IMG/VR virus record: IMGVR_UViG_3300027839_000017
Location: 1-47,585 of that record
Length of the DNA stretch: 47,585 nt
Reading direction: 5' to 3' (one strand)
From: a virus
The notes beneath the pieces were generated by a model. It saw only the letters and a program-made list of their open reading frames with translations. It did not search any database and was not told where the DNA came from. This document shows, piece after piece, positions 5,498 through 41,956 of this stretch (its first letter is position 1; each line of letters opens with the position of its first letter). A program made the translations under genes and the position numbers.

Positions 5498-6667
5498 ATG
5501 ACACCAGAAGAACAGGCAGCACTAGACGCAGCAGTTGAACAAGAGAAGACCTTGATGAATGATGATGAATCATTAGAGGATTTCTTCGGAGGAGAATTAG
5601 AACTAGAAGAAAAGGAAGAAGATGGTTCAGCCAATAAGAAGAGTGATGATGAAGCAGAGGTTATCGAGGGTGAAGATGAATCAGGTGGAGAGGAAGGAGG
5701 AGATAAAGGAGAAGAAGGAGATTCATCTGAAGATAGTTCCAGCGAAGAAGAGAAAGATGTCTTAGCTGATCTAGGTAAAGAACCAGAGGAGAAAGAGGAG
5801 AAGGTAGAGCCAGGTAAAGAGAAGAGAGATTATTCTGAGTTCACAGTAGAGGAACAAGCAGTCCTCAAAAGAATGCCTAACGAAGCATTTAACTACACCT
5901 CTGCTAAACTTAGAGAGCACAAGCTACTAATAGCAGAAACAGCTACTCTCAAAGATACTGCTCAGCACATCTACTCTAACCCCGAAGCATACCGTATCCT
6001 TCCTGAGTCTAAGGAGATCCTAGCTAACCTTACAGATCAAGAAGATCTCAAGGGCTTCTATCAAGAACAACTCCAGCTTGCCTCACAAGGTAAAGCTTGG
6101 ACTGGGCTGAAAGAAGGAGCAGATGGTAAGCTAGAAAGATTACCTATTGCTGCTACTGTAGCTAAGAACGAGGATGGGGATGAAGTAAATGTAGCTGATC
6201 CTCAACACGTAGCTTGGATTAACCAGCAGATGGGTAAGGTTGACTCAGACAAGCAATCCCTGATCTCTCGTTATGCAGCTATCAAGAAAGAGCATGAAGA
6301 GAAGTCTAAGGATATACCTAGCTTCCTAACTGCTGCTGAGGATAAGGTCTTCCCTGATATGAAGACTCTCACTAAACCTCAACAGAAGTTTGTGGATGAA
6401 GTGGCTAAGGCTTTCCCTCTCTCACTCAGGGTAGATCCTATGATGAAATTCGTAGGTAAAGGTCTTATCCATGTCCAAGCTTTAAAGACTCAGCTAGCTG
6501 CTAAGGACGCAGAGATCGCTAAGCTCAAGGGGATTAAGGTAGAGAAGGATCTCGCCGGACCAGGAACTAAGGCTGTAACCTCAGGTGCAGGAAGTAAAGA
6601 GGCTGATGGTGACACTAAAGAGTTCAAGGACAATGACTTCGAGGGGATGGGAATGCCTAGCCTTTAG
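5498..6667 (+). CDS. Putative capsid scaffolding protein
   Basis: 389 residues. The first 115 are extremely acidic (long Glu/Asp/Ser stretches), followed by helical, coiled-coil-prone sequence and a C-terminal helix (about 340-355, LKTQLAAKDAEIAKLKGIK). Acidic, helical, low-complexity proteins between portal and capsid genes are typical scaffolds that shape the procapsid and then leave. Start chosen for GAGGAATAGATATG. Function is inferred from composition and order. Confidence 0.72.
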   Translation: MTPEEQAALDAAVEQEKTLMNDDESLEDFFGGELELEEKEEDGSANKKSDDEAEVIEGEDESGGEEGGDKGEEGDSSEDSSSEEEKDVLADLGKEPEEKEEKVEPGKEKRDYSEFTVEEQAVLKRMPNEAFNYTSAKLREHKLLIAETATLKDTAQHIYSNPEAYRILPESKEILANLTDQEDLKGFYQEQLQLASQGKAWTGLKEGADGKLERLPIAATVAKNEDGDEVNVADPQHVAWINQQMGKVDSDKQSLISRYAAIKKEHEEKSKDIPSFLTAAEDKVFPDMKTLTKPQQKFVDEVAKAFPLSLRVDPMMKFVGKGLIHVQALKTQLAAKDAEIAKLKGIKVEKDLAGPGTKAVTSGAGSKEADGDTKEFKDNDFEGMGMPSL

Positions 6668-6679
6668 ATAATAAACTTA

Positions 6680-6702
6680 TGCCATACTAGCAACATGGCA
6701 TG
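6680..6702. repeat. Small inverted repeat overlapping promoter P4
   Basis: ATGCCAT (6680-6686) and ATGGCAT (6695-6701) form perfect 7-base arms. The right arm is the -24 box of P4, so a binding protein or cruciform here could control that promoter. Confidence 0.5.
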
Positions 6703-6712
6703 ATTCCTGCTC
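6695..6712 (+). promoter_or_regulatory. Sigma-54 promoter P4 for the major capsid gene
   Basis: ATGGCATGATTCCTGCTC carries TGGCAT-N5-CTGCT with exact GG-N10-GC spacing (GG 6697-6698, GC 6709-6710). The -12 side TTCCTGCT is identical to that of P3 (45632-45649). The predicted start is about 6722, giving a leader of about 145 bases before the capsid ATG at 6867. Weaker -24 box (CAT for CAC) than P1, but the position is ideal for boosting the most abundant virion protein. Confidence 0.68.
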
Positions 6713-6737
6713 CTAATAGGTAGGACATAAATTCAGG

Positions 6738-6857
6738 CACTTCTAGTAAGTGCTTTCGCTTCTGAGGTAAGGGCATACCAATTACAATAGAGATTAGATT
6801 CTTTTCTGAATTTAGTATTTACTCTCTAGGTTCAACCCTTACTTCTAGAAGCGAAAG
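6738..6857 (+). promoter_or_regulatory. Structured leader of the capsid mRNA
   Basis: Two nested structures precede the capsid gene. A small hairpin GCACTT-CTAGT-AAGTGC lies at 6738-6753. A long stem pairs 6753-6773 with 6836-6857: 11 base pairs (CTTTCGCTTCT with AGAAGCGAAAG), an internal loop, then 6 more (TAAGGG with CCCTTA). The right arm ends 9 bases before the ATG. Likely roles are mRNA stabilisation, RNase processing, or translation control; which one is not shown by sequence. Confidence 0.65.
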
Positions 6858-6866
6858 ATACTTATT

Positions 6867-8159
6867 ATGCCAGTTGATATTGATGTAGCCATCACAACAC
6901 GTCAGTGGGATGTGGAGGATGTTAACAAGTTTAACAAACTTCCCTACTACTTTGCTAAGATGTCAGCACGGAAGTCCGTGCAATATAGCGTATGGCAGAA
7001 GCTATACGGAACACTTCCTTGGACTCCCAAACAAGGAACTACTCTTCGAGGTGTAGCTCAGGAACCTTCTCCTGTTACTCGTCAACAGTTCTCACCTAAT
7101 GCTATTACAGCTGGTGCAACTCGTGACATTATCACTACCCTCGAACGAACCTCTGATGCTCTGGTTCAACGACACAAGTTTGAATCACCTCAGTTCCACT
7201 TCCTTCAAGAGTTCCAAGACTTTGCAACTCATATCGCATTTAACAATGCTGATATTAACCGTCAGATCATGGTTGCTCAAGAAGCTTTCTTGAGAACACA
7301 AGCTCTACATAAGTCTCCTATGATGGTTATCGTAGGTAAGACGGGGACTGGAACTGCTCTATCTGAGCTTACTTCTGTTCCTCATCAAACTGGTATCGTT
7401 GATATCGCTGCTGCTTCTGGTAAGACTACTGCCTTCTGGCAGGATGCTATCTCTAAGGTAGCTCCTACAGGTGGTGAGATGAACCTCCGAGCTTTCCATC
7501 GTTGCCTAGCTTATATCTCAGAAGATATCCAAGCAGAGCCTTTCTCTTCGCTTACCTCTGTATCTAAGAAAGATGCACCTGTAGCTGATCGTTACATCAT
7601 GACTGGTGAGAACTCCTTGTATAGTAACCTTATCTTCGATCAAGAAGCTAAGGCTTTGATGAGTGCTGATAGTAACTTCCTTACTAACCAGTTCACCGGT
7701 TCGTTGTTCAATCGTTTGAACTTCATGTCAGAACAGTATCCTTTGCGATTAGATGCAGATGGAACTTTCCCAGTCCCTGAGATCATCGTATCCTCTACTA
7801 CTGGTGGAGATAACCATAACCAAACCATTCCTAACCCTGACTATGCTGCTGCTCCTTTTGGGATTGCATTCATTACAGGTGCTAATGCTTATCGAGCTAT
7901 CTCTGTTGGTGCTCCTCCTGCTGCCTTTGCTGGTCAGTCTATGAGCGAAGGTCGATTCAATAAGCTTAACTGGAATGGTCGAGCACGTCTAACGGATAAC
8001 GTCCTCATCAACTATGGTGGTGGTATCCAAGATGTTAATAACTACGGTGAGGTTATGAAGTTCATTGCTGATGCAACCTTCGCTGCCCTAGCTCAAACGT
8101 CTAGGTTCTGTATTCCAGTCCTATACCGACGTAATCGCTTCGGTTCAACTGATAGCTAA
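6867..8159 (+). CDS. Major capsid protein
   Basis: 430 residues, with no membrane segment. Assigned by order (terminase, portal, scaffold, capsid), by size, by a composition rich in Ala, Thr, Asn and Phe typical of HK97-fold shells, and by its privileged expression signals: own sigma-54 promoter P4 and a structured leader. Leader before the ATG reads GCGAAAGATACTTATT, lacking GGAGG, as for the next structural genes. No named family motif is recognised, so the fold is inferred. Confidence 0.82.
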   Translation: MPVDIDVAITTRQWDVEDVNKFNKLPYYFAKMSARKSVQYSVWQKLYGTLPWTPKQGTTLRGVAQEPSPVTRQQFSPNAITAGATRDIITTLERTSDALVQRHKFESPQFHFLQEFQDFATHIAFNNADINRQIMVAQEAFLRTQALHKSPMMVIVGKTGTGTALSELTSVPHQTGIVDIAAASGKTTAFWQDAISKVAPTGGEMNLRAFHRCLAYISEDIQAEPFSSLTSVSKKDAPVADRYIMTGENSLYSNLIFDQEAKALMSADSNFLTNQFTGSLFNRLNFMSEQYPLRLDADGTFPVPEIIVSSTTGGDNHNQTIPNPDYAAAPFGIAFITGANAYRAISVGAPPAAFAGQSMSEGRFNKLNWNGRARLTDNVLINYGGGIQDVNNYGEVMKFIADATFAALAQTSRFCIPVLYRRNRFGSTDS

Positions 8160-8187
8160 ACTTTAGTAACCTTTAAGAAAGATAATT

Positions 8188-8697
8188 ATGATTAAATTCC
8201 TAAGAACAATCTTCCTAGTGGCATTCCTCTTCACCTTGTTAGGTGTAGCTGAGGCAGGCCAAGTGGATTCAACATTTACTGGTGTAGATACTAACAGTAT
8301 CATCGTTGGTAACGTATCTGTAACCAAGGTAGAGATTGTAAATGCCACTGCTGGCACTGCAACCTTTACCCTTTATGATGCTCCTGCTGCTATTACAGGA
8401 GGTCTAACCTACAGTGTCGGAGCCTTTACTAACTTCAATATTGCTACTGCTCTAGTAACTAACACCTGGACTAATATCTTCGGTGTAAGTAACTCAGAAG
8501 TATCTACGAAGATTACGAAGACAGAGACATCAACTGCTGCCTCTACTCCTACTTACAATAAGATTCGGTCAACTATCAGTATCCCTGCTAATAGCACATC
8601 TACTGTTACCTTTCCGAACTTCACACTTACTACCTTTGGTGTAGGTGGAGTTAGCTCAACCAACCTAGTTGCTACCGTTTACTACACACCTAATTAA
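8188..8697 (+). CDS. Sec-signal protein next to the capsid gene
   Basis: 169 residues. The N-terminus is a classic Sec signal peptide: basic start MIKFLR, hydrophobic core 7-20, cleavage likely after A23 (VAEA before GQVD), with a lipobox absent. The mature part is Thr/Ser/Val-rich, beta-strand-like, low in charge, resembling an exported or surface adhesin-type domain. A secreted protein between capsid and fibre genes is unusual: it could act in the periplasm or outer surface of the infected cell, for instance in superinfection exclusion, or the leader could be retained in the virion. It is followed by a terminator at 8753-8790. Confidence 0.75.
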   Translation: MIKFLRTIFLVAFLFTLLGVAEAGQVDSTFTGVDTNSIIVGNVSVTKVEIVNATAGTATFTLYDAPAAITGGLTYSVGAFTNFNIATALVTNTWTNIFGVSNSEVSTKITKTETSTAASTPTYNKIRSTISIPANSTSTVTFPNFTLTTFGVGGVSSTNLVATVYYTPN

Positions 8698-8752
8698 AAG
8701 ACTTTCAGTTCGGGTTGTTGGGCCTGGGTTGTTGTGTATGCTGGAAAACAAG

Positions 8753-8790
8753 AAAGGGCACTCTTATAGCTGAGGGTGCCCTTTTCTTCT
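8753..8790 (+). terminator. Rho-independent terminator after capsid unit
   Basis: AAAGGGCAC (8753-8761) pairs with GTGCCCTTT (8775-8783), extended by CTC/GAG with one bulge, loop TTATAGCT, followed by TTTTCTTCT. It closes the P4 capsid transcription unit and should leave the two head genes at higher level than downstream fibre genes. Confidence 0.85.
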
Positions 8791-8823
8791 AATCAGATCT
8801 AAAGTTTAACGAAAGAATTTATT

Positions 8824-10551
8824 ATGCCACGTGGAGATGTCGGACTTAAAAAGCGTGTTGTTGCGCTAGAGAGTGTAATGGAGAACCTGGTTCCCCGAGT
8901 AGATACACTGTTTCAACAAAACGAGAACCTACTTACTAATCCCTGGTCACCTTTGGGTAGTTGGGTAGCTTCTACTAATTCACCCCCATTAGCTAATGCT
9001 GATGCTGCGGTTGCTGGGGCTAGTTATCTTGCAGCTGATGGTGGAACAGTAGATTTCGGAGCTGGTGGAGGAGGAATTGTATTCCTTGGAGGAGATCTAG
9101 TATCTAAGAACGCTGCTGGTATCTGGTTCAAGTCTGCTGGGATAGGTAGTGTTATTGCAGGCTTCGCTACATTAGCTCTTGCTAGAGCAGAGTTGGATGT
9201 AATGACTATTGGGGACGTAAACGATCGCCAGCTTTCGAAGGCTCCAAGCAATGGGCTTTATTTTGACGGGGTTGATGACTCAGCGGCAACAGCAACAGGG
9301 CTTATTGCTTCTTCCAAGTTAAGCTTTAACACCAGTGGGCTTACAGATTTACCTTTTTCCGGCAGCGCAATAATCAGGGTGGACGATGTGGCGGGTCAGT
9401 TCCAAATCGCTGGAAAAGAAAGCGGGCTAGCTCAATACGAATGGTCATGGAGAGTTAATGCCAGCGGCTTTATACTTCTCGTGTTCCGCGATGTGAGCGC
9501 GGCGGTTTACGTCATTGGAACGGCCTCAACGGGCGCACTTGTGGAGGGGCAATTCGTTCATGTGGCCTTCACTTATGATGGAGTTGGTGGAGCGTCGGCG
9601 GCGAGCAACATAAAAATCTACGTGAACGGAAGTTTGCAAACGTCGTCGGGAACGTACAACGCGAGCTATGAAGCGATGGAAGACGGCACTGCTGGGGTGA
9701 CATTTGGAAAATATGTCACTGGTGCTCTATTTGGCGAGGGAGTCATTGAATCGTGCATCATATTCAACCGCGAACTTACAGCCGCCGAGATCCTTCGCCT
9801 TTCGAACAACAACGTGCCAGAGGTTGCGGATCAGTATGCCGGCGCGGTAGATCTCACTAGCGGCACGCTCGTAATAGGCAGTCGATACAGGCTAACCAAC
9901 TGGATTACAGCCGATGATTTTACGGACGTAGGAGCTGCCAGCAACGCTGATGGAGAGGAGTTTGTCGCGAGCGGCGACACCCCGGCAACTTGGTCAAATA
10001 GTAGTGTCGTAACTCGGATCGGGGCCGTCCTATCCCTAAGCCCTGGAAACATCGAGGTAGACGGTGATTGGATCGATGCTTCAAGTAACCGCTTGAATGG
10101 AACTAACACTGGAGCCTCACCTCTTCTTACTCACCAACGTCTAGATCTTGCAGATGCTAATGCAGCAGCAGGTGAACAGGTTCTATCTGTTGGAACTGGC
10201 TTCTCAGTTAAGAAGAGTGGCTATGTTAATGCTACTCGTATCACTATTCCTACCTCTGAGCTAACTGTAGCCACAGCAGCGGTTACTGCTACTGGATCTA
10301 GACACACTATTGATACAGAAGGTGATGCTTCTGCTGATGATCTAGCTACGATTAACGGAGGAGAGGATGGAATGATCCTTGTTCTAACTGCTGAGAATGA
10401 TGCTAGGACTGTAACGGTTCAAGACTCTGTAGGTAATATTGATTGTGCTGGTGATATGGTTCTTGATGCTGTTGAAGATAGTATCGAACTCATGTATCTA
10501 TCCTCTATCAGTAAGTGGGTAGAGAAGAGTCGCAGTGCTAACGCAACCTAA
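8824..10551 (+). CDS. Fibre/appendage protein with LamG-like lectin domain
   Basis: 575 residues. Domains: N-terminal coiled coil (about 5-35), linker to about 130, a concanavalin/LamG-like jelly roll (about 140-335; strands such as WSWRVNASGFILLVF and FVHVAFTYDGVGG, then IKIYVNGSLQ and IFNRELTAAEILRLSNN), a second beta region, and a C-terminal fibre module (about 480-575) ending in ISKWVEKS. LamG folds bind glycans, so a receptor- or surface-binding role is likely. Positions about 9225-10085 have visibly higher GC and different codon choice than both flanks, a sign of a transferred module. Confidence 0.75.
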   Translation: MPRGDVGLKKRVVALESVMENLVPRVDTLFQQNENLLTNPWSPLGSWVASTNSPPLANADAAVAGASYLAADGGTVDFGAGGGGIVFLGGDLVSKNAAGIWFKSAGIGSVIAGFATLALARAELDVMTIGDVNDRQLSKAPSNGLYFDGVDDSAATATGLIASSKLSFNTSGLTDLPFSGSAIIRVDDVAGQFQIAGKESGLAQYEWSWRVNASGFILLVFRDVSAAVYVIGTASTGALVEGQFVHVAFTYDGVGGASAASNIKIYVNGSLQTSSGTYNASYEAMEDGTAGVTFGKYVTGALFGEGVIESCIIFNRELTAAEILRLSNNNVPEVADQYAGAVDLTSGTLVIGSRYRLTNWITADDFTDVGAASNADGEEFVASGDTPATWSNSSVVTRIGAVLSLSPGNIEVDGDWIDASSNRLNGTNTGASPLLTHQRLDLADANAAAGEQVLSVGTGFSVKKSGYVNATRITIPTSELTVATAAVTATGSRHTIDTEGDASADDLATINGGEDGMILVLTAENDARTVTVQDSVGNIDCAGDMVLDAVEDSIELMYLSSISKWVEKSRSANAT

Positions 10552-13223: not shown

Positions 13224-14321
13224 ATGAGATCAGGCAAAACATCTCCTTCGTTGAAAAGGAAGTCTATTCAGATAACAGGGTTTATGAATAGCTATACCAG
13301 TTACGGTATACTAACCCAGAAGTTCGCACAACACCTACTACATGGCGAGGTATCAGCAGTGGTTAGACCATTGAATTTCCAAGAGCCTTGGGGTGATGCA
13401 ACAAGGGTAGATGACCAGGTTAAGTGTATGATGATTCACAAGGATCTACATAACCTATGCACACATGAGATAGTATTCCATACTCCTAACTGCTGTCACG
13501 TAGATCTACATAAGAGTGGGTTTGCTAAGAAGAACAGGACTTTGTTTACCCTTTGGGAGAGTTCGTTAGTCAAACCTCAGTATATCCAAGACATCCACGA
13601 ACATTATGGAAGAGTTATTGTTCCCAATAGTTTTTGTAAACAGGTTCTGGAAGATAGTGGTATTGATATCCCAGTATACATTTGTCCTCTTGGTGCTGAC
13701 AATGGAACTTTTTCTCCCTCTGAGACTAAGTTTCCTAGTGACGAAGTTACTACGTTTCTTTGTGCGGGTAGGATGGCACATGGGGGCGTTAGGAAAGGGA
13801 TCAAACAGGTCATAGAGGTGTTCATGGATACCTTTGCTAATAAGCACAATGTAGCTCTGAGGGTTAAGCTTCATCCAGACTGTCCAGAGTTTCCGGCGTT
13901 TGACTGTAGAGTGAATATCACTCGCTCCTTTATGGACAAACCAGCACTCGCCGAGTGGTATAGAAGTGGTAACGCTTTCGTATCTATCTCTAGCGAAGGA
14001 TGGGGATGGCATCAACAAGAAGCGCAACTGTGTGGCTTACCTCTAGTTGGTGTTAACTGGGGTGGATTGACTAACTTCTTCCATGGGTTCGAGTGTGACT
14101 ATAAGCTAGAGAAAGCTAAGGATGCTGAGATCTATGAGAAGACTGGTTATCAACCTGTAGTGAATGAGAAGGATCTTAGGGAGAAGATGATGTTCATCTC
14201 AGAGAAGCCAGCTTACGCTCATAGGGTAGGACAAGGCGGAGTCCATAAGGCTATCAAGTATACGTGGGAAAACTCAAGAGAAGAGTTCTTAACCCTGTTG
14301 AGAAAGTTGAGGATAGCATGA
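13224..14321 (+). CDS. Glycosyltransferase family 4-like (GT-B)
   Basis: 365 residues, within the normal range for GT-B enzymes. N-terminal Rossmann half begins KSIQITGFMNSYTSYGILT; the C-terminal donor-binding half has LCAGRMAHGGVRKGIKQVI and the signature SSEGWGWHQQEAQLCGLPLV, with the two Glu seven residues apart expected in GT4. It likely transfers a sugar from a nucleotide-sugar to a virion protein or surface glycan. First of a run of three glycosyltransferases and a sulfotransferase; linked by ATGA to the next gene. Confidence 0.88.
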   Translation: MRSGKTSPSLKRKSIQITGFMNSYTSYGILTQKFAQHLLHGEVSAVVRPLNFQEPWGDATRVDDQVKCMMIHKDLHNLCTHEIVFHTPNCCHVDLHKSGFAKKNRTLFTLWESSLVKPQYIQDIHEHYGRVIVPNSFCKQVLEDSGIDIPVYICPLGADNGTFSPSETKFPSDEVTTFLCAGRMAHGGVRKGIKQVIEVFMDTFANKHNVALRVKLHPDCPEFPAFDCRVNITRSFMDKPALAEWYRSGNAFVSISSEGWGWHQQEAQLCGLPLVGVNWGGLTNFFHGFECDYKLEKAKDAEIYEKTGYQPVVNEKDLREKMMFISEKPAYAHRVGQGGVHKAIKYTWENSREEFLTLLRKLRIA

Positions 14322-15052
14322 GAGACTTTCCTATTACATTCCTTTTTCTGATTAGTAGAGAAGAGGAGAAGCCTGTTGTAAAGAAGAATCTACAGATGCT
14401 AGAGAGTATGCCTTTTAGGCATAGTGTTGCCTTAGTGCATGATGATACATTCCTTCCTTGCATAGGTGATGATTTTGCTAATGTGTTTACCATCTCACAT
14501 AGAGTTAATGGAGATTTTGCTGGACATAAGAACTATGTATTAGGCTCAGAAGCTCCTTGGCTTCCCTACATCTACTTCTGTGATGGGGATGAAGTGATAC
14601 CTGATATGTTTCCTTCGTTGTTCAGGATCATGGATGCTAACCACTCTGTTAATGATAACGAAGCTATAGCTTTTCCTCGGATGAATAGAGTTGATTGGGA
14701 TAGCGAGGAGAGTGCTTACCAGGATATGGATTTTGTATGGGACCAGTTTAAGTTGATGGAGAAAGATCACAAAGAGAACCTTGGTAGCAATGACAGGGAA
14801 TTTACTGTAGGTGTTAATGCTAAGGGAGATATAAGAGCAGATGGTCTCCTATATCCTGATTACCAAAACCGACTCTTTAACAAACAGTCTTTGATAGGTT
14901 TCGAAGGTAAGATACATGAGCAACCTATCACTAAGAACCACTACCGCTATGCTGTAGATCTAGGTGATATCATACATGAGAAGACCTTAGATGAGAGGAT
15001 TATATCTAACACTCTATACCATAACATCACACATGGGGAGGTTGCTGTATGA
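14318..15052 (+). CDS. Glycosyltransferase family 2-like (GT-A)
   Basis: 244 residues from the chosen ATG at 14318, which gives a 4-base ATGA overlap with the previous stop; an ATG 54 bases earlier would force a long overlap and is less likely. Motifs: IYFCDGDEVIP, where DGD is the metal-binding DxD, and RLFNKQSLIGFEGKIHEQPI, typical of the core-oligosaccharide (WaaE/SunS-like) GT2 group. It probably adds a hexose or heptose-type sugar. The exact donor cannot be deduced. Confidence 0.82.
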   Translation: MRDFPITFLFLISREEEKPVVKKNLQMLESMPFRHSVALVHDDTFLPCIGDDFANVFTISHRVNGDFAGHKNYVLGSEAPWLPYIYFCDGDEVIPDMFPSLFRIMDANHSVNDNEAIAFPRMNRVDWDSEESAYQDMDFVWDQFKLMEKDHKENLGSNDREFTVGVNAKGDIRADGLLYPDYQNRLFNKQSLIGFEGKIHEQPITKNHYRYAVDLGDIIHEKTLDERIISNTLYHNITHGEVAV

Positions 15053-15774
15053 GTATTCCTTGTGTAGGTTTCCTAACCTTTAACAGACCTGACTTAAGTA
15101 TTAGGTTGTTGAATTCTTTCGATGCTGAGATAGATCATCTAGTTATAATTAACAATGGGCCTTACAGTCATGAGACTTGGAAAGAGGGAGCTAAAGATAA
15201 GGCTAAGAAAGTCTCTGTTCATACTCAGTATAATACAGGTGTAGCTTGTGGATGGAATATGATTATCAAGGATGCGCCGGGAGCAGCTTATTGGATGATA
15301 CTGAATGATGACCTGATCTTAGCTCCTGGTGATATGGTTAAGCTAGGTAAAGAAGCCCTGGAAAGTGGTGAAGATGTTGCTATCTGTGCACCTAATCCAA
15401 TAGGTTTGGCTATGATGGCTGTTAAACCTGTAGCTATTAATGAGGTTGGACTATTCGATGAGAACTTCTACCCTGCTTACTTAGAGGATTGTGATTACAT
15501 GTGGAGAACAAGAGTAGCTAATCTTAAGTTCCGTTACTTCTATGGATGTGATTCAGTCCATGAGTGGAGTATGGCTAACAAGTCAGATAGAAGGGTAGCA
15601 GAGTTTAATAGCAAGGTTAGAACGCAAGCAACTCTTCCATATTATATAGCTAAGTGGGGTGGAGATGGAGGAGAAGAGAAGTATTCAATCCCTTTTAATG
15701 GGGAAAAGAATAACCAATTCCTTCCTTTTATGAGGGCTAGGATTCTAGATATAGCTAAGGAGGTAGGGCTATGA
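15049..15774 (+). CDS. Glycosyltransferase family 2-like (rhamnosyltransferase type)
   Basis: 241 residues. GT-A pattern in order: FLTFNRPDLSIRLLNSF, VIINNG, NTGVACGWN, then WMILNDDLILAPG with the catalytic metal-binding DD, and GLFDENFYPAYLEDCDYMWR, the acceptor-side motif of rhamnosyl-like GT2. Overlaps both neighbours by ATGA, so it is translated with the other glycan genes. Confidence 0.88.
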   Translation: MSIPCVGFLTFNRPDLSIRLLNSFDAEIDHLVIINNGPYSHETWKEGAKDKAKKVSVHTQYNTGVACGWNMIIKDAPGAAYWMILNDDLILAPGDMVKLGKEALESGEDVAICAPNPIGLAMMAVKPVAINEVGLFDENFYPAYLEDCDYMWRTRVANLKFRYFYGCDSVHEWSMANKSDRRVAEFNSKVRTQATLPYYIAKWGGDGGEEKYSIPFNGEKNNQFLPFMRARILDIAKEVGL

Positions 15775-17694: not shown

Positions 17695-18645
17695 ATGCCA
17701 TTAATTGATATACTAACTCCTTTAGCTGTGCAGACAGGCTTGAGGTTAGACAATGCTAATAGCAAACAGAAAGCTATAGACATTGTTAATGAAGGAGCAA
17801 GAAGGTTATATGAATCTACTGACATGCAGTTCTGTCTGTATGAGCAAGTATTTGATTTTGATCTGACTAACGAGCTAGTAACCTTACCTTATTACGTAGA
17901 TATAGTAAGAGGGATTAGATGCCAAAGCAGTAATATGCCCTTAACTCTGATAGATAAAAGACCTAGGTATCAGTATGGTAAGTATTACCAGGATGCTTTG
18001 GACATAAGAGTGAAGCAAAAGGTAGCTTTGAACAGGGATCTGGAGAATGAATCTCCGTTTACCTTTACCATATCTGCGCAGAATGACGAAGCTTTTACTG
18101 TGACAGTAGTAGGATCTACGAGTAGTAGAGATAGAGTAGAGGAAACCCTCTCCTTCTCAGCTACTGATGTGACTAAGACTACGGTTAACTCCTTCCTTAA
18201 CCATCCTCCGTTGCGCGGGATCTATAAGAACAAGAGGACTAAATACAACGTAGTCGTCACCGATGCAAGTGCTAATGAGATCGCCGAGATAGCCTCGCAT
18301 AGGAAGGAAAGCAAGTATCTTATGGTCCAGATTAGAGATCCTTCGCTAACCGGCTCAGGTAGTAAGTGCTATGAGATCCTATACAAATACGTATATGAGC
18401 CCTTTGACACAGATTACAGTGACTTCGTATGCCCTGGTTTTGATGACGCTATCCTACACATGGCACTCAGTGTATTCTATATGGCCAGTAAAGATCAAGA
18501 GGAAATGGTTAAAGCTGTAGCTGAAGAAGGTGTAGCTAAGAAGATTGCTAGGAATATCAATAAGGATAGTGAGAGGTCTAATGAGCATAGACTCCAGACT
18601 AAACCTAGTGGTTTGATGACTGCGCACAATAGGATTACACGATGA
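17695..18645 (+). CDS. Putative head-tail adaptor (T7 gp11-like tail tubular A)
   Basis: 316 residues. N-terminal helices (QKAIDIVNEGARRLYESTD) and a C-terminal helix pair (PGFDDAILHMALSVFYMASK) match the layout of podovirus adaptor or tail-tubular A proteins; a beta-rich insertion fills 110-200. It directly precedes the nozzle gene, as in T7, and its stop overlaps that start by ATGA. Assignment depends largely on order. Confidence 0.62.
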   Translation: MPLIDILTPLAVQTGLRLDNANSKQKAIDIVNEGARRLYESTDMQFCLYEQVFDFDLTNELVTLPYYVDIVRGIRCQSSNMPLTLIDKRPRYQYGKYYQDALDIRVKQKVALNRDLENESPFTFTISAQNDEAFTVTVVGSTSSRDRVEETLSFSATDVTKTTVNSFLNHPPLRGIYKNKRTKYNVVVTDASANEIAEIASHRKESKYLMVQIRDPSLTGSGSKCYEILYKYVYEPFDTDYSDFVCPGFDDAILHMALSVFYMASKDQEEMVKAVAEEGVAKKIARNINKDSERSNEHRLQTKPSGLMTAHNRITR

Positions 18646-21107
18646 GTGATACCCTACAGATAGATCAGTTTAATGGAGGGATGTCCTATAAGGAAGATAG
18701 GGCTAAGATAGGTAAGGGCCAGTATTACCTGATGGTTAATGGTAGGAATAGGTTTAACTCTATCAAGCCCATCAAGGGACCAGAGGATCTGACTAGTAAG
18801 TTGCCTATAGACGGAGCGATTAACTTGCAGGGAGTGTATAGTTTCTCTGACTTCGTGGTAGTATTCGCTGGAGGTAAAGGGTATTATAAGAACTATAATG
18901 ATACCGCAGGGTTTAACAAGATTCCCGCGCTCACCCTATCTGCTACGGCGGTTAAGATATACGTAGCTGCGGTGCCTTCTTCTACTGTTAACAAGGACAG
19001 GAAAGCCTTCTCCTCTACAGACTCTACCTTAGGTTCAACCGAAGGGGAGTTTGACGAAGGAACTGAGTCTGGCTTTATCGTATGTGATGGAGTAACTCAG
19101 CCCTGGTTTGTATTCGCTGATGGTTCAGCTAGGCAGACTAAGGCTTACAGTGCATGGAACAACTCACTAGGTGAGAGAGAGTATGTGCCTATTGGTATCA
19201 AACCTCAGTTCCACGATGGTATCCTCTACATGGTAGCTAAGGATAGTAAGGGTAAGTATACTAAGATTTATCGCAGTGTTACTGGTAGACCTACTGACTT
19301 CATGGTTAACATCGATATCAACGGTGATAAGCTACCTGAAGAGAGTAAGGGTGGAGCTGATAGCGTTAGCCATAGTATCTCCTTGGACGAGATCACTAGC
19401 TTCTATCCTTCTTCGCTAGAGAATAGAGGGTTGATAGTATCTACGTTGAAAGGGACTTGGTTTGTTATTCCAGATTATGGAAGGACTATCTTTGGAGAGC
19501 CCTCGTTTACTAGCCAAGGTCCTATCTTTAACACCGGCGCAGTAAGTGAGAATTCTCTAGTCGAGAACAATAGTGATACGGTGTTGATAGATCAGTCAGG
19601 GTTAAGAAGCTTTAATGATATCGCCGTCAGTAAGAATGAGGGAAGGAACAAGAGCTTCTCAGAGTCGATACAGAGGATCTTCGGGGAAGAGTTACAGGAT
19701 GAGAATAGTGTGGCAGTGGAATACGAGGACTACTTACTCTTCTCAGTTCAGACCTCCTACGGACCAGTGGTCATAGTGTTCGATACTATCACCCAATCCT
19801 TTGCTAGTGTGGATAACTACCCTAACATTGGACAGATCAAACAGTTTGCTATACTGAGGATCAACGGGATACAGAGGTTGTTCGGGATAACTACTAGCGA
19901 TAAGTTTGTAGAGCTATTCGTTGGAGAGGTAGTTACGTGTATGTTTTACCAGGCTGATTACGGAGGAAGTAATGAGAAGGGTGAGAGGTCTATGATGAGG
20001 GTAGCTAAGACTACCATAGGCTGCAGCAAGATCAGGACTAGTGGTAAGATACAGTTCACTTACTTCTACGATGGAGTAAGGGGTGAGACTCAGGAGGTTA
20101 ACGTAACTCAGAGCGAACCTGAGAATGTGACTAAGCCATTACCTTATCTACCTAATATCATACCAGGTGGGATAACCAGGACAGCAGCCTTTAACACTCC
20201 TCATGCTAGGAGAACAGCAGTGATGATCGAGACTAACGTCGACCTAGCTATAGATTGGATTCAGCATGAAGTGGAGAGTGTATCTGTAGAGTATGATAGC
20301 CCTAGTGACTATGATGATATAAAGCAATTAGGAGGAGATGTGTATCCTTACGACCTAGTATTTTTTGGTAACAACTTTGAGACCACCGGAGACAAGGTAA
20401 CTCTGATCGAGGCTGCTAAGGCAATCTTGCCTGATCTATACCTTGGTGGCGGAAACCAGGTTGCAGGCTCCGGTGGTTCTCTTACCCTTACACCGTTAAG
20501 TGACTACCTAGATTATGAGAATACCTTGAAGAAGGTGTATTGTTGTCTAGGTGCTACGGAATACTCAGAGGACTATGGAAGGGATCTGATAGAGTATATG
20601 TTAGGTCATCACTACAATAGGTATATGGAGTATGTGCATAAGAACATGCAGATCTTCTTGTTGAGTAGTGGGTATGACCAAGCAGGTGTGCTGAAAGAAC
20701 CTCATGGTGTGGATGTGAATAGCGAACAGTATAGCTGGTTCAAGGCTACTATCGCTAAGTCTACTGCGCGGTTCAAGATAGTGATGATGCATCACGCTCC
20801 TTATACCTCGTTCAATCCTGTAGCTAAAACGGATCTGAGATGGAACTTTGCAGAGCTAGGTGTAGATCTAGTCCTATCCTCTCGCACCGCTGCTTATGAA
20901 AGGCTACAGGTAGATAACATACCTTACGTTAATGTCTATAGTGGTAATTCAAGGGAGACAGCAATAGATAACTTGCAGGCTGAGAGTAAGGTAATTCACT
21001 TCACGACTAGCACCATACTTAAGCTACACGCTGATGAGTTTAATCTGTATTGTAAGGCAATCGATACATCGGAGAATGTAATAGACCAGTTCATTATTAA
21101 CAAGTAA
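18642..21107 (+). CDS. Tail nozzle protein fused to degenerate metallophosphatase domain
   Basis: 821 residues, long for a nozzle. The first about 560 residues begin IDQFNGGMSYKEDRAKIGKG and match tail tubular B/nozzle proteins, which form the tube tip. Residues about 568-821 resemble a purple-acid-phosphatase/calcineurin fold: VYPYDLVFFGNN (576-578, where GDN is expected), GATEY (637-641, for GNHDY), MMHHAPYTS (H717, H718 kept), and a VDLVLSSRTAAYERL segment (YER 752-754 kept, GHxH lost). Several metal ligands are replaced, so it is probably inactive and may bind a receptor. Confidence 0.82.
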   Translation: MSDTLQIDQFNGGMSYKEDRAKIGKGQYYLMVNGRNRFNSIKPIKGPEDLTSKLPIDGAINLQGVYSFSDFVVVFAGGKGYYKNYNDTAGFNKIPALTLSATAVKIYVAAVPSSTVNKDRKAFSSTDSTLGSTEGEFDEGTESGFIVCDGVTQPWFVFADGSARQTKAYSAWNNSLGEREYVPIGIKPQFHDGILYMVAKDSKGKYTKIYRSVTGRPTDFMVNIDINGDKLPEESKGGADSVSHSISLDEITSFYPSSLENRGLIVSTLKGTWFVIPDYGRTIFGEPSFTSQGPIFNTGAVSENSLVENNSDTVLIDQSGLRSFNDIAVSKNEGRNKSFSESIQRIFGEELQDENSVAVEYEDYLLFSVQTSYGPVVIVFDTITQSFASVDNYPNIGQIKQFAILRINGIQRLFGITTSDKFVELFVGEVVTCMFYQADYGGSNEKGERSMMRVAKTTIGCSKIRTSGKIQFTYFYDGVRGETQEVNVTQSEPENVTKPLPYLPNIIPGGITRTAAFNTPHARRTAVMIETNVDLAIDWIQHEVESVSVEYDSPSDYDDIKQLGGDVYPYDLVFFGNNFETTGDKVTLIEAAKAILPDLYLGGGNQVAGSGGSLTLTPLSDYLDYENTLKKVYCCLGATEYSEDYGRDLIEYMLGHHYNRYMEYVHKNMQIFLLSSGYDQAGVLKEPHGVDVNSEQYSWFKATIAKSTARFKIVMMHHAPYTSFNPVAKTDLRWNFAELGVDLVLSSRTAAYERLQVDNIPYVNVYSGNSRETAIDNLQAESKVIHFTTSTILKLHADEFNLYCKAIDTSENVIDQFIINK

Positions 21108-21111
21108 GCAT

Positions 21112-21468
21112 ATGAATTTAGCCAATGTAGTAGAGTATGTAATGAGCCATGATACAGGCCCGGCGTTCAGAGGTAAGAATTTCGCGGGAGTAACTAAGGC
21201 TGTTTTAGAGAACAAGGTAGCAATGGTGGTGAATGGGGATAAGATAGTGGGGGTTATGACAGTTAAGGTAAGGGAAGGTTTATTGTTAGAGGTATTGAAT
21301 CTCTACACCTCACACCCTAAAGCTCTAGCTGGGCTATTAGATAACCTATACAATCGATTCCCATTCCATTCATTCACAGCATTAAGGGCAGTGAAGAACC
21401 TTCCAGGTAAAGTTAGAAGGGTTAACTACTCTTGGAACCAATTTTTAAAGATAAGAGGGAGATTATAA
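21112..21468 (+). CDS. Small tail-module protein, possibly GNAT-like (T7 gp13 position)
   Basis: 118 residues. Beta-rich: NKVAMVVNGDKIVGVMTVKV followed by EGLLLEVLNLYTSHPKAL reads like a shortened acetyltransferase core, and T7 gp13, which sits between nozzle and ejection genes, also has a GNAT-like look. The order 11-12-13-14-15-16 is thus reproduced. No catalytic residue can be confirmed, so it may be purely structural. Confidence 0.6.
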   Translation: MNLANVVEYVMSHDTGPAFRGKNFAGVTKAVLENKVAMVVNGDKIVGVMTVKVREGLLLEVLNLYTSHPKALAGLLDNLYNRFPFHSFTALRAVKNLPGKVRRVNYSWNQFLKIRGRL

Positions 21469-21469
21469 T

Positions 21470-22291
21470 ATGAGTAAATCTAAGAATAGTGCAGGTGAAA
21501 CTACTGATGCATCAATGCAGGCAACGATTAAGAACTTGCCTAAACTGACACAGTTAATTACAGAACTTACTCCAGCAGTAGAGCAAGGAAGGTTTGATGT
21601 TGCTCAACAGATATCTCCTCAATTTGCGAGGCTGGCTAATGAGCTGCTAGATACTGAGGGAAGAAGATCAGCTCAGATAGGTGGTGAGATATCAGCGGCG
21701 AACCGTAACCAACAGGTAACTAGTGAGCTAGAAACCCTACGAGGTCCAGGGAAAGAACTCTTAGCTGCTGCAACTGAGGCAGCTAGAGAAGCTGATCCTG
21801 AGTTCTTCGAAGGCAGGGAAGCCGCTGGAGCCAAGCTTTTAGAGCTTCTCAACGGTGTGAGCGTGGATGGCTCAGGTGGTGAGTTAGCTGCTAGTGAGCG
21901 AGGGATCAATAGATTGAACCAAGGTAGGACATCTGGAGTAGGAAGCAATACTGATACTATCAGGAACGCTATCAACTTCGGAGATGAAAGGTTGAAGAGA
22001 GTAGGTGCTGTTAGTGCTGCTATCAATACAGCTAGTAACCTCCTTCCTGCTACAAGGCAAGGGATAGATACCTTTGCTCAGGCTACAGGTAGAGTTGGAA
22101 CTACTAACCTAGGCCAGCAAACTAATACAGGGGTGAGGACTCAAAGTAATGATACTTTGAGTCAAGGTCAGCAAGTGTTTGGTGAGGCAAATAGTAACGC
22201 AAGACAAGCTAATCAGCTTAACTCTGATAATAGTTTCGCTAACAACTTCTCTAAGATCGCAGGAGGTATCGGATCAATCGCAGGACCTTAA
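21470..22291 (+). CDS. Internal virion/ejection protein (T7 gp14 position)
   Basis: 273 residues, strongly helical, rich in Gln, Asn, Ala, with long amphipathic segments and a Gly-rich end (NNFSKIAGGIGSIAGP). Composition and place between gp13-like and larger ejection genes suit an internal core protein that leaves the capsid to form the trans-envelope channel. Homology is not recognisable by eye. Confidence 0.62.
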   Translation: MSKSKNSAGETTDASMQATIKNLPKLTQLITELTPAVEQGRFDVAQQISPQFARLANELLDTEGRRSAQIGGEISAANRNQQVTSELETLRGPGKELLAAATEAAREADPEFFEGREAAGAKLLELLNGVSVDGSGGELAASERGINRLNQGRTSGVGSNTDTIRNAINFGDERLKRVGAVSAAINTASNLLPATRQGIDTFAQATGRVGTTNLGQQTNTGVRTQSNDTLSQGQQVFGEANSNARQANQLNSDNSFANNFSKIAGGIGSIAGP

Positions 22292-30661: not shown

Positions 30662-30810
30662 AAATTCATTATCTTATTTGAATATCCAGTAATTAATACA
30701 ATGGACCAGAAGGTTAATATTCCTTCTATCCTACCGAAGACTGCTATGCTAATACTTAATGCTACTGCTAGTATCACCAAGCTTAGCCATTTCTCAGACA
30801 GTGATTCCAT
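30658..30810 (-). CDS. 50-residue two-helix membrane protein
   Basis: Begins MESLSEKWLSLVILAVALSI and contains two hydrophobic stretches (about 9-25 and 30-41) joined by GRIEG. It starts 17 bases inside the end of the papain-like protease gene and ends with an ATGA overlap. Topology resembles a tiny holin or an anchor for the protease; both are guesses. Confidence 0.68.
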   Translation of the reverse strand: MESLSEKWLSLVILAVALSISIAVFGRIEGILTFWSIVLITGYSNKIMNL

Positions 30811-31519
30811 AACAGCTTTTCAATGCAAGGTTAGCATAGGTTTTGATATCCATATATCCATAGCCTCTTCTACCCCACCTAGTTCCCCAGCTATTCTTGA
30901 TGATGTAACCTTGGGGAGTATAGCCGCAGATGATGATAGCATGTCCCGGACTCATAGGAGGTTGGATCTTATAGTTAGCTAACCTCTTAGTATTAAAGGA
31001 CATGAACTGTGGATCAGGAGTGAGGTGCGTGACTAAAGGACCATGTTCATGTAGCCATGCCTTGATCTTCTTCTCTGATCTACCTACGTTGTAATAGGAT
31101 TTGATCTTATTCTTAGCTGCTTCCTTGATATAATCTGCTTGGGAAAGGTTACAGAACCTACCCATAGGCATCTGCTTCCTGGTAAGACAGCCATGCTTCT
31201 TAGCTACAGAGAGCGCGTCCTTGATATAGGTTCCGGCGGTAGTCAGTGCTGTGGTAGGCAATACCTTATAAGCATCTGATTCCTTACTACACATCCACAG
31301 GAAGTTAGGTGATAGATCCTCAAGGGTATGCCATTCCATTACACCCGTAACTGCAAAGCCTACACATGCACCAGATTGGTATTGGTTCTTCATCTTCCAA
31401 CTCCTCCTCCTAAGGTCTAGGTGAGTGGGTGCACTGTTATCTGTTAGATCGTAACGGTAATCCGTTGAAGTGTTACGGTCTTTGAATGCTGTTAGTAGTG
31501 GTTTCATTTCTTGTTTCAT
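30794..31519 (-). CDS. Papain-family (C1) cysteine protease
   Basis: 241 residues. The full catalytic set is visible: oxyanion Gln46 and nucleophile Cys52 in QYQSGACVGFA, His193 in GHAIIICGY, and Asn209 in KNSWGTRWGRRGYGYMD. The N-terminal part before the catalytic domain is only about 30 residues (starting near APTHLDLR), so the usual inhibitory propeptide and signal peptide are missing and it should act in the cytoplasm without activation. It sits in the replication operon beside the polymerase. Targets may be host proteins; unknown. Confidence 0.9.
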   Translation of the reverse strand: MKQEMKPLLTAFKDRNTSTDYRYDLTDNSAPTHLDLRRRSWKMKNQYQSGACVGFAVTGVMEWHTLEDLSPNFLWMCSKESDAYKVLPTTALTTAGTYIKDALSVAKKHGCLTRKQMPMGRFCNLSQADYIKEAAKNKIKSYYNVGRSEKKIKAWLHEHGPLVTHLTPDPQFMSFNTKRLANYKIQPPMSPGHAIIICGYTPQGYIIKNSWGTRWGRRGYGYMDIKTYANLALKSCYGITV

Positions 31520-40220: not shown

Positions 40221-40296
40221 AAGTAGATCGGATGGCTTTAACGGTTAGGTCTAGGAGGAACAGAAAAGATAGGGTGAGTGGGATTAGATAGATCAT
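40210..40296 (-). CDS. 28-residue membrane peptide
   Basis: Begins MIYLIPLTLSFLFLLDLTVK: one hydrophobic helix and a basic tail (RSTYER). Start forms an ATGA overlap with the glycosyltransferase stop (40293-40296) and its end overlaps the next gene by 11 bases, so it is translated in series with them. Confidence 0.62.
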   Translation of the reverse strand: MIYLIPLTLSFLFLLDLTVKAIRSTYER

Positions 40297-41039
40297 ACCT
40301 CTTTCCCTTCTCTCTCACTCAAGAGATCTCTATGGTATCTATCCATTCTCTCTTGCTCTGCTACTGACTTCCGATGTTGAATGACAGGGAAGAAGTCAAC
40401 AGTCATCCCATTCTCCTCTGATCTCTTAGCTATAGGCATCTCATGTGTAACACCTATCACCTCATCCGTCAACGCTATACTCATCAGCCTTGGCTGGATG
40501 TCAGGCCACATCCACCGTTGTAGATAGTGCTCTCTCATACCCCTAGGTAACACGGCACTTCCCTCATATACATTATTGCCTCCACCTGTTTCCTTTAAAC
40601 TCTTCAACACTTCCAGATCTTTAGGGCCTACACCCTTGATAGTATTGTTCCTTGGCATACCTATACAGAAGGGAGAGGAGAAATCTATGTGAGTAGGGAG
40701 CGAGTTGGATAGGTGAGAGAGGGAGTCTAAGGTTAGATACTCATCTCCATCTAAGAAGAAGATCCATCCTTCTTTCTTCTCCTGTTGCAACTGACGAAGG
40801 AGTTCAGTCTTCCTCTGCCCGAAGTTATTCTTGAAGGCATAACTGATAGGGTTATACCTATCATCATCTAACTCACTCAGCAACGCAGGATGTTGCTCAG
40901 AGTTACTATCTACCACCGGAACATAGGTTATATTCTCTTGCCCCCTATAGTAGTGACGAGCATTAACTAACTCATCCTTTCTTGAGAAGAACTGGTATAG
41001 GTAGAGGTGTGGTATGGGGGTGCTGGTTGTTGGATTCAT
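40293..41039 (-). CDS. Glycosyltransferase family 2-like, replication arm
   Basis: 248 residues. WIFFLDGDEYLTLDS carries the GT-A DxD, and PRLMSIALTDEVIGVTHEMP is a typical core-oligosaccharide GT2 tail, similar in layout to the enzyme at 14318-15052. It is separated from the three other glycosyltransferases, directly behind sigma-54 promoter P2, and heads the replication operon. Timing suggests it modifies something different from the virion glycan genes, perhaps host surface or a DNA-linked sugar. Confidence 0.75.
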   Translation of the reverse strand: MNPTTSTPIPHLYLYQFFSRKDELVNARHYYRGQENITYVPVVDSNSEQHPALLSELDDDRYNPISYAFKNNFGQRKTELLRQLQQEKKEGWIFFLDGDEYLTLDSLSHLSNSLPTHIDFSSPFCIGMPRNNTIKGVGPKDLEVLKSLKETGGGNNVYEGSAVLPRGMREHYLQRWMWPDIQPRLMSIALTDEVIGVTHEMPIAKRSEENGMTVDFFPVIQHRKSVAEQERMDRYHRDLLSEREGKEV

Positions 41040-41122: not shown

Positions 41123-41956
41123 TTATTGTGTAGATGGTGGTAAGATCTTATTAACCATAAGTTGGAACACGTAGTTAATGATAGCCCTACAGTTTCCCTG
41201 GTCTAGGAAAATCTTACCTTCCTTTGCTTTGATAATGAATGTGTTAGTATCATACTCACTAGGTGATTGGTTGAAGATCTTAGAGTAATAGTAGATGAAC
41301 ATCATCTCCAAGTCATCTATCCTCTTAGCTATAGGCGGGATGGAGAAGGTTAGCTTAGCTATCCTGAAGTATAGATCACTACGGAACTCCTCCTTATCCA
41401 TCATCTCAGGTAGGTTCTTATTCGTTGCGGCTACGACACGACACCTAAAGCCATAGTCTTCTTGTCCTCCGATAGCTCTAGCTCGTTGAGTCTCTAAGGC
41501 TCTGAGAAGCTTAGCCTGCATGGATAGAGGGAGTTCGCCGATCTCATCTAGGAACAGAGTCCCATGATTAGCCTGTTGAAACAAACCCTCCCTATCCTTA
41601 ACACACCCCGTGTAACTACCTTTCTTAGCTCCGAAGAACTCAGCCTCTATCAACTCAGATGGTATAGCTCCGCAGTTAACTACTACGAACTTACCTTCCC
41701 TGCCATTGTGTAGGCGGTAAGCTAAGGCTTCCTTACCTACCCCTGAAGGACCACTAATCAGACATGAGATATCTAACTTACTCACTACCTCTATCTGATT
41801 CAAGGTATGAATGAGCTTATCATCCTGAGTATAGAAGGTTCCTTTCCATCTACTCCTTAGAGAAGACTCGAGGTTGAAGATGTCTAGCTTCTTATCAGGA
41901 AGTATATCCTCTTGGAATTCATCTAAGATAGTCTGCTTGGTATGTTGGGCTTGCAT
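41123..41956 (-). CDS. Sigma-54 activator ATPase (AAA+ domain only)
   Basis: 277 residues. Walker A GPSGVGKE (K75), sigma-54 contact loop GSYTGC (113-118, replacing GAFTGA; key Thr and Gly kept), Walker B LFLDEIGELP (D137, E138), sensor AATN, arginine residues FRSDLYFR (R192, R198), and lid GNCRA (254-258). These are the marks of bacterial enhancer-binding proteins, which use ATP to open sigma-54 promoters. No receiver or other sensory domain precedes it and no HTH follows: it ends about 20 residues after the lid. Enhancer-less activators such as FlgR and CtcC are known. The phage promoters P1-P4 are its likely targets. Confidence 0.93.
   Translation of the reverse strand: MQAQHTKQTILDEFQEDILPDKKLDIFNLESSLRSRWKGTFYTQDDKLIHTLNQIEVVSKLDISCLISGPSGVGKEALAYRLHNGREGKFVVVNCGAIPSELIEAEFFGAKKGSYTGCVKDREGLFQQANHGTLFLDEIGELPLSMQAKLLRALETQRARAIGGQEDYGFRCRVVAATNKNLPEMMDKEEFRSDLYFRIAKLTFSIPPIAKRIDDLEMMFIYYYSKIFNQSPSEYDTNTFIIKAKEGKIFLDQGNCRAIINYVFQLMVNKILPPSTQ

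Follow-up and report, generated by a model that had tools for sequence, protein, structure and literature searches.

A predicted purple acid phosphatase-fold domain with replaced metal ligands at the C-terminus of a phage tail nozzle protein

The 47,585-base virus record analysed here over its whole length (hereafter the window) contains, at 18642-21107 on the plus strand, an ORF of 821 aa with an ATG start, and the question raised by this locus is why a phage tail protein should end in a domain that resembles a phosphatase and has had its metal ligands changed. A reading made from the sequence alone had proposed that the gene codes for a nozzle protein with a dead phosphatase-like domain, which would serve at the tail tip in receptor binding or wall contact. 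The assignment as a nozzle held. The full-length AlphaFold model, for which the input alignment consisted of 34 phage sequences (including the relatives L022 and L001 described below) and no bacterial ones, matched the nozzle of Pseudomonas phage Pa223 with a Foldseek E value of 2.3e-20, and its residues 1-551 (18642-20294, +) aligned to residues 2-513 of the Pa223 chain 9nwi_Y with a VIA-align Z of 25.2 over 440 aligned residues. The same stretch also matched the nozzles of SU10, crAss001, P22 (gp10, Z 21) and T7 (gp12). The predicted core has the fold of podophage nozzles, i.e., a beta-propeller plus a platform made of N- and C-terminal parts, and we describe the gene as a nozzle (tail tubular protein B or gp12-like) that by homology is expected to be hexameric. 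A tblastn search with the window protein and the proteins of L022 and L007 against 50,697 phage records gave zero matches and, at the sensitivity used, no isolate phage has this nozzle. The core is followed by a short linker, approximately residues 552-565 (20295-20336, +), seen as low pLDDT at 550-569 of the full-length model, and by the C-terminal domain at residues ~566-821 (20337-21104, +), supported by AlphaFold, the match to pig purple acid phosphatase and the comparison of ligands.

This C-terminal domain is where the likeness to purple acid phosphatases (PAPs) lies. The last 277 aa of the protein, submitted alone, matched Pfam Metallophos with an E value of 5e-4 (21.0 bits, half a bit below the curated cut-off of 21.5), and the full-length model, which has low confidence in its C-terminal part, matched PAPs with a Foldseek E value of 3.5e-8 (rat PAP). 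A second AlphaFold model covering residues 541-821 (pLDDT 81.2, pTM 0.83) gave 1e-13 against PAPs and aligned to pig PAP over 251 residues with a Z of 28.2, 2.8 Å and 12% identity; the alignment behind this model includes bacterial metallophosphatases, which favours a PAP fold. The predicted structure is the beta-sandwich alpha/beta fold of the superfamily, in agreement with the PAP-like domain proposed in the sequence-only reading, for which fold prediction had been suggested as the check; the outcome named as refuting it, a predicted fold unlike metallophosphatases, did not occur. The idea that bias in alignment or modelling has lent a PAP look to an unrelated domain might draw on those bacterial sequences and on the slightly sub-threshold Pfam score, but we give it hardly any credit, as the model obtained without bacterial sequences still matched PAPs, the single sequence on its own reached the Pfam E value given above and the whole domain aligns collinearly to those of L022 and L001. 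The likeness is nevertheless remote and easily overlooked, because sequence searches with the whole 821-aa protein at default thresholds drew a blank in PHROG and Pfam and yielded nothing useful from the PDB, and a six-frame Metallophos scan of the complete record gave nothing at E 0.001. The top viral structural match to the domain was the BFVD entry A0A6J5NEL2 (E=3e-17, 21% identity), an uncultured Caudovirales protein of 554 aa that is possibly another tail protein bearing a PAP-fold domain.

Scans of viral contigs yielded 156 nozzle ORFs, about 100 of them distinct by their last 100 residues, in a set that includes some truncated ORFs and some from overlapping loci. A metallophosphatase domain was present on the same nozzle protein in four further uncultured phages, L022 (E=9.5e-10 against Pfam Metallophos), L001, L217 and L002, the last with its domain cut by the contig end. 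Most of the approximately 100 distinct ORFs were without it. In five of them (L011, L012, L014, L025 and L088) the nozzle is extended at this point by some other C-terminal stretch of 350-775 aa; of these extensions only that of L025 gave a clear domain match, to TIG (E=1.3e-4). The remaining nozzles that we read either end near core residue 550-600 or have insertions within the core. A metallophosphatase found in a faecal “Bacteriophage sp.” record (H7, L180) was judged to be bacterial, with TonB-type and other bacterial genes around it, and was discarded.

The gene order around the nozzles bearing the domain was conserved. Upstream of the nozzle, in an order common to L001, L002, L005, L022 and L217, there is a gene of 316 aa (17695-18645, +) that gave no match in the family search and that, from its position, would code for the tail adaptor. 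Downstream, two genes of 118 and 273 aa (21112-22291, +) correspond in order and size to genes of L001, L022 and L217. In L217 the nozzle gene is divided into two ORFs in the same frame (5959-7113 and 7114-9402); the first contains the N-terminal nozzle strands and an extra region of ~320 aa and ends in a TAA immediately followed by the ATG of the remainder, which may be a natural split nozzle or a sequence error. Elsewhere in the window we found a 575-aa protein with a lectin-like Laminin_G_3 domain (8824-10551, +; E=1e-12) that is a candidate fibre or decoration protein, a papain-family cysteine protease (30794-31519, −; Peptidase_C1 E=2e-18), and three glycosyltransferase-like genes (13224-14321, +; 15049-15774, +; 40293-41039, −), two of them within the structural module. 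By eye, a glycosyltransferase-like gene lies upstream of the L022 nozzle too. There is also a stand-alone sigma-54 activator AAA+ domain of 277 aa (41123-41956, −; PF00158 E=7e-56), with a further match to phrog_7998 (E=1.7e-35), a family of unknown function; it may divert the sigma-54 transcription of the host.

The metal site was compared with a reference set of 82 bacterial metallophosphatases obtained from a genome scan, in which the seven metal-ligand positions are conserved in 81-82 of the 82 sequences. The window reads N, N, A, T, H, R and A there, so that a single ligand is kept. The two aspartates are replaced by Asn577 (D-I, FFGNN; 20370-20372, +) and Asn605 (D-II, GGGNQ; 20454-20456, +), the ligand/catalytic pair N-III and H-III by Ala638 and Thr639 (LGATEY; 20553-20558, +), and H-V1 and H-V2 by Arg748 and Ala750 (SSRTAAYERL; 20883-20891, +). 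The survivor is H-IV, His717 (MMHHAPYTS; 20790-20792, +). The tyrosine of PAPs is absent too. All the motifs quoted in the sequence-only reading were located, GNN at 576-578, GATE at 637-640, HHAPYTS at 717-723 and SRTAAYERL in the 748-756 region, and its claim of changed metal ligands stands, with six of the seven replaced. Could the domain nonetheless catalyse a reaction through a site that is altered or mononuclear? His717 remains and there is an asparagine at both aspartate positions, but motif III has lost its N-H pair and motif V its two histidines, all nearly invariant in the bacterial relatives, and we regard activity as very improbable. Among the other phages the state of the site is graded. 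L022 has all seven ligands, the Asp of motif II being counted as present because, one column off in the alignment, it is read by eye in GLGDY; L001 has four (D-I, N-III, H-IV and H-V1) and L217 only one, N-III, which differs from the residue surviving in the window. Window and L217 have in common the change of D to N at both aspartate positions and a serine in place of the glycine of GHxH. Because few nozzles bear the domain, the ligand states are graded and other nozzles bear other additions, we consider it an exchangeable addition. It probably came in as an enzyme, and afterwards the metal site was lost and the hydrophobic core kept.

The retention of the fold can be followed in the core columns, defined as those hydrophobic in at least 85% of the non-redundant bacteria. 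They are kept at 53 of 62 in the window, 55 of 65 in L217 and 47 of 59 in the intact L022. Conserved positions other than ligands are kept at 28/60 in the window and 39/60 in L217, against 1/7 ligands in each; the excess of ligand loss is significant in L217 (p=0.015) and not in the window alone (Fisher p=0.13). Regarding descent, the identity of the domain between relatives tracks that of the nozzle core (28% vs. 36% for window and L217). The window domain has 24-28% identity to its phage relatives, no close relatives of it were found, and it sits on a long branch in the domain tree. L022 and L001 are sisters (support 100/100). The nearest relatives of the L022 domain are bacterial metallophosphoesterases, such as a Hymenobacter plasmid protein (32% identity, E=8e-22); the bacterial scan confirmed 223 loci, of which the best 80 were kept. 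Given the conserved active site of all the bacterial relatives, the intact metal site would be the ancestral state. A single origin of the fusion is compatible with the trees and not resolved by them (p-AU 0.447 for the nozzle tree with five rows and 0.646 for the domain tree), and a single clade of the four complete fusions had a support of 35/68 in the nozzle tree.

The location of the domain in the virion can be predicted from known nozzles. In T7 gp12 the C-terminal domain and the N-terminal 45 residues form a platform on the adaptor, beside the fibre dock (PMC6702177), and in the muzzle of crAss001 an equivalent domain joins the rings (PMC10172136). Because the core of the window protein ends at ~551, like nozzles that finish in the platform, and the PAP domain starts ~15 residues on, it is expected at the level of the adaptor and the fibre dock. 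By this analogy it should hang at the nozzle rim near the adaptor, and the position at the tail tip proposed earlier is not supported.

The explanation that we favour is that a bacterial-type PAP-like domain became fused to the C-terminus of a podophage nozzle, behind the platform contacting the adaptor. It would have been captured as an enzyme, of which L022 still has every ligand, and in the window lineage the metal site would have been lost and the fold retained. The domain would now be a passive surface module, with six copies round the upper rim of the nozzle, binding a ligand of the host envelope at adsorption and occupying the site where relatives have other add-ons, for example the TIG/Ig-like domain. 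Passive binding to the host envelope is the role with the best support, and we assign it a probability of about 0.5. Receptor binding by nozzle and adaptor proteins has a precedent in TTPA and TTPB of the Vibrio phage OWB, which bind Vp0980 (PMC7241545), and by analogy the putative role in receptor or wall contact suggested for this domain is plausible. A more specific history, in which a bacterial PAP-like enzyme was taken onto the nozzle to modify the envelope and became in some lineages a pseudo-enzyme that binds its former substrate or a protein receptor, is conceivable, and we hold it only tentatively. Against envelope binding, a position at the platform level speaks against first contact with the cell and would suit the docking of a fibre equally well, and the window's loss of ligands, taken alone, is not significantly above that at other conserved positions (1/7 vs. 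28/60).

Fibre docking is indeed the main rival, although we consider it rather unlikely. The domain would pack on the adaptor and, at the rim of the nozzle, hold a fibre or other appendage of the tail, making no contact with the host. It comes directly after the platform, which in T7 touches the adaptor, with the fibre held between the fibre docks of nozzle and adaptor (PMC6702177), and a protein with the PAP fold, Plasmodium GAP50 (Z 26.3), acts as an anchor (PMC8949495). But most relatives are without such a domain and others have unrelated additions at that place, therefore it cannot be a general dock, and no fibre partner was found. The domain might also be a relic of a former envelope phosphatase, which L022 may still possess, now dispensable in the window. 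The graded loss of ligands and the long branch would fit with this, but a useless domain is expected to vanish fast from a phage genome. Here the frame is open, 85% of the hydrophobic core is kept in spite of the low identity to the phage relatives, and a second copy eroded in a different way (L217) has retained the fold too, so that a mere remnant is the less probable of these two alternatives. Envelope binding is the reading that we retain.

One enzyme domain on one virion protein is seen here in intact, partial and lost states, and the change from a tail enzyme to a tail adhesin could be tested with the purified domains of this series; if the history of recruitment outlined above is correct, that route would be traceable through it. 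Foreign domains are moreover taken up at the predicted adaptor-side end of the nozzle, besides the insertions at the tip, and nozzle-borne domains like this one can escape default family searches.

Among known systems, the closest in the core are the podophage nozzles (Pa223, P22 gp10, T7 gp12, SU10 and the crAss001 muzzle gp44). The short ones, such as those of Pa223 and P22, align to residues 1-551 over almost their full length, and several nozzles bear extra domains, as the one in the window does. The extras that we read about are insertions such as Ig-like domains and the crass domain of crAss001 (PMC10172136), and we found none with a metallophosphatase fold, whereas the extra domain of the window is C-terminal. 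Searches of the open-access literature gave no account of a phage nozzle that carries a metallophosphatase or a pseudo-enzyme. Purple acid phosphatases, both of the pig, human and rat TRAP type and of the plant type, have their fold in common with residues ~566-821 and differ in the ligands, replaced at six of seven positions in the window, and in that the domain of the window sits on a phage nozzle. The bacterial secreted-type metallophosphoesterases (Hymenobacter, Chloroflexota, Planctomycetota and Ignavibacteria) are the closest in sequence to the L022 copy, with intact ligands and no fusion to a tail protein in the loci that we read. Plasmodium GAP50 has the PAP fold and a non-catalytic role described as membrane anchor, but it is a eukaryotic membrane protein of disputed catalytic status, for which acid phosphatase activity has been reported (PMC8949495). 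Nozzles decorated with domains were already known; what these phages add is a PAP-fold domain on the nozzle, with the metal site lost in the window and intact in L022.
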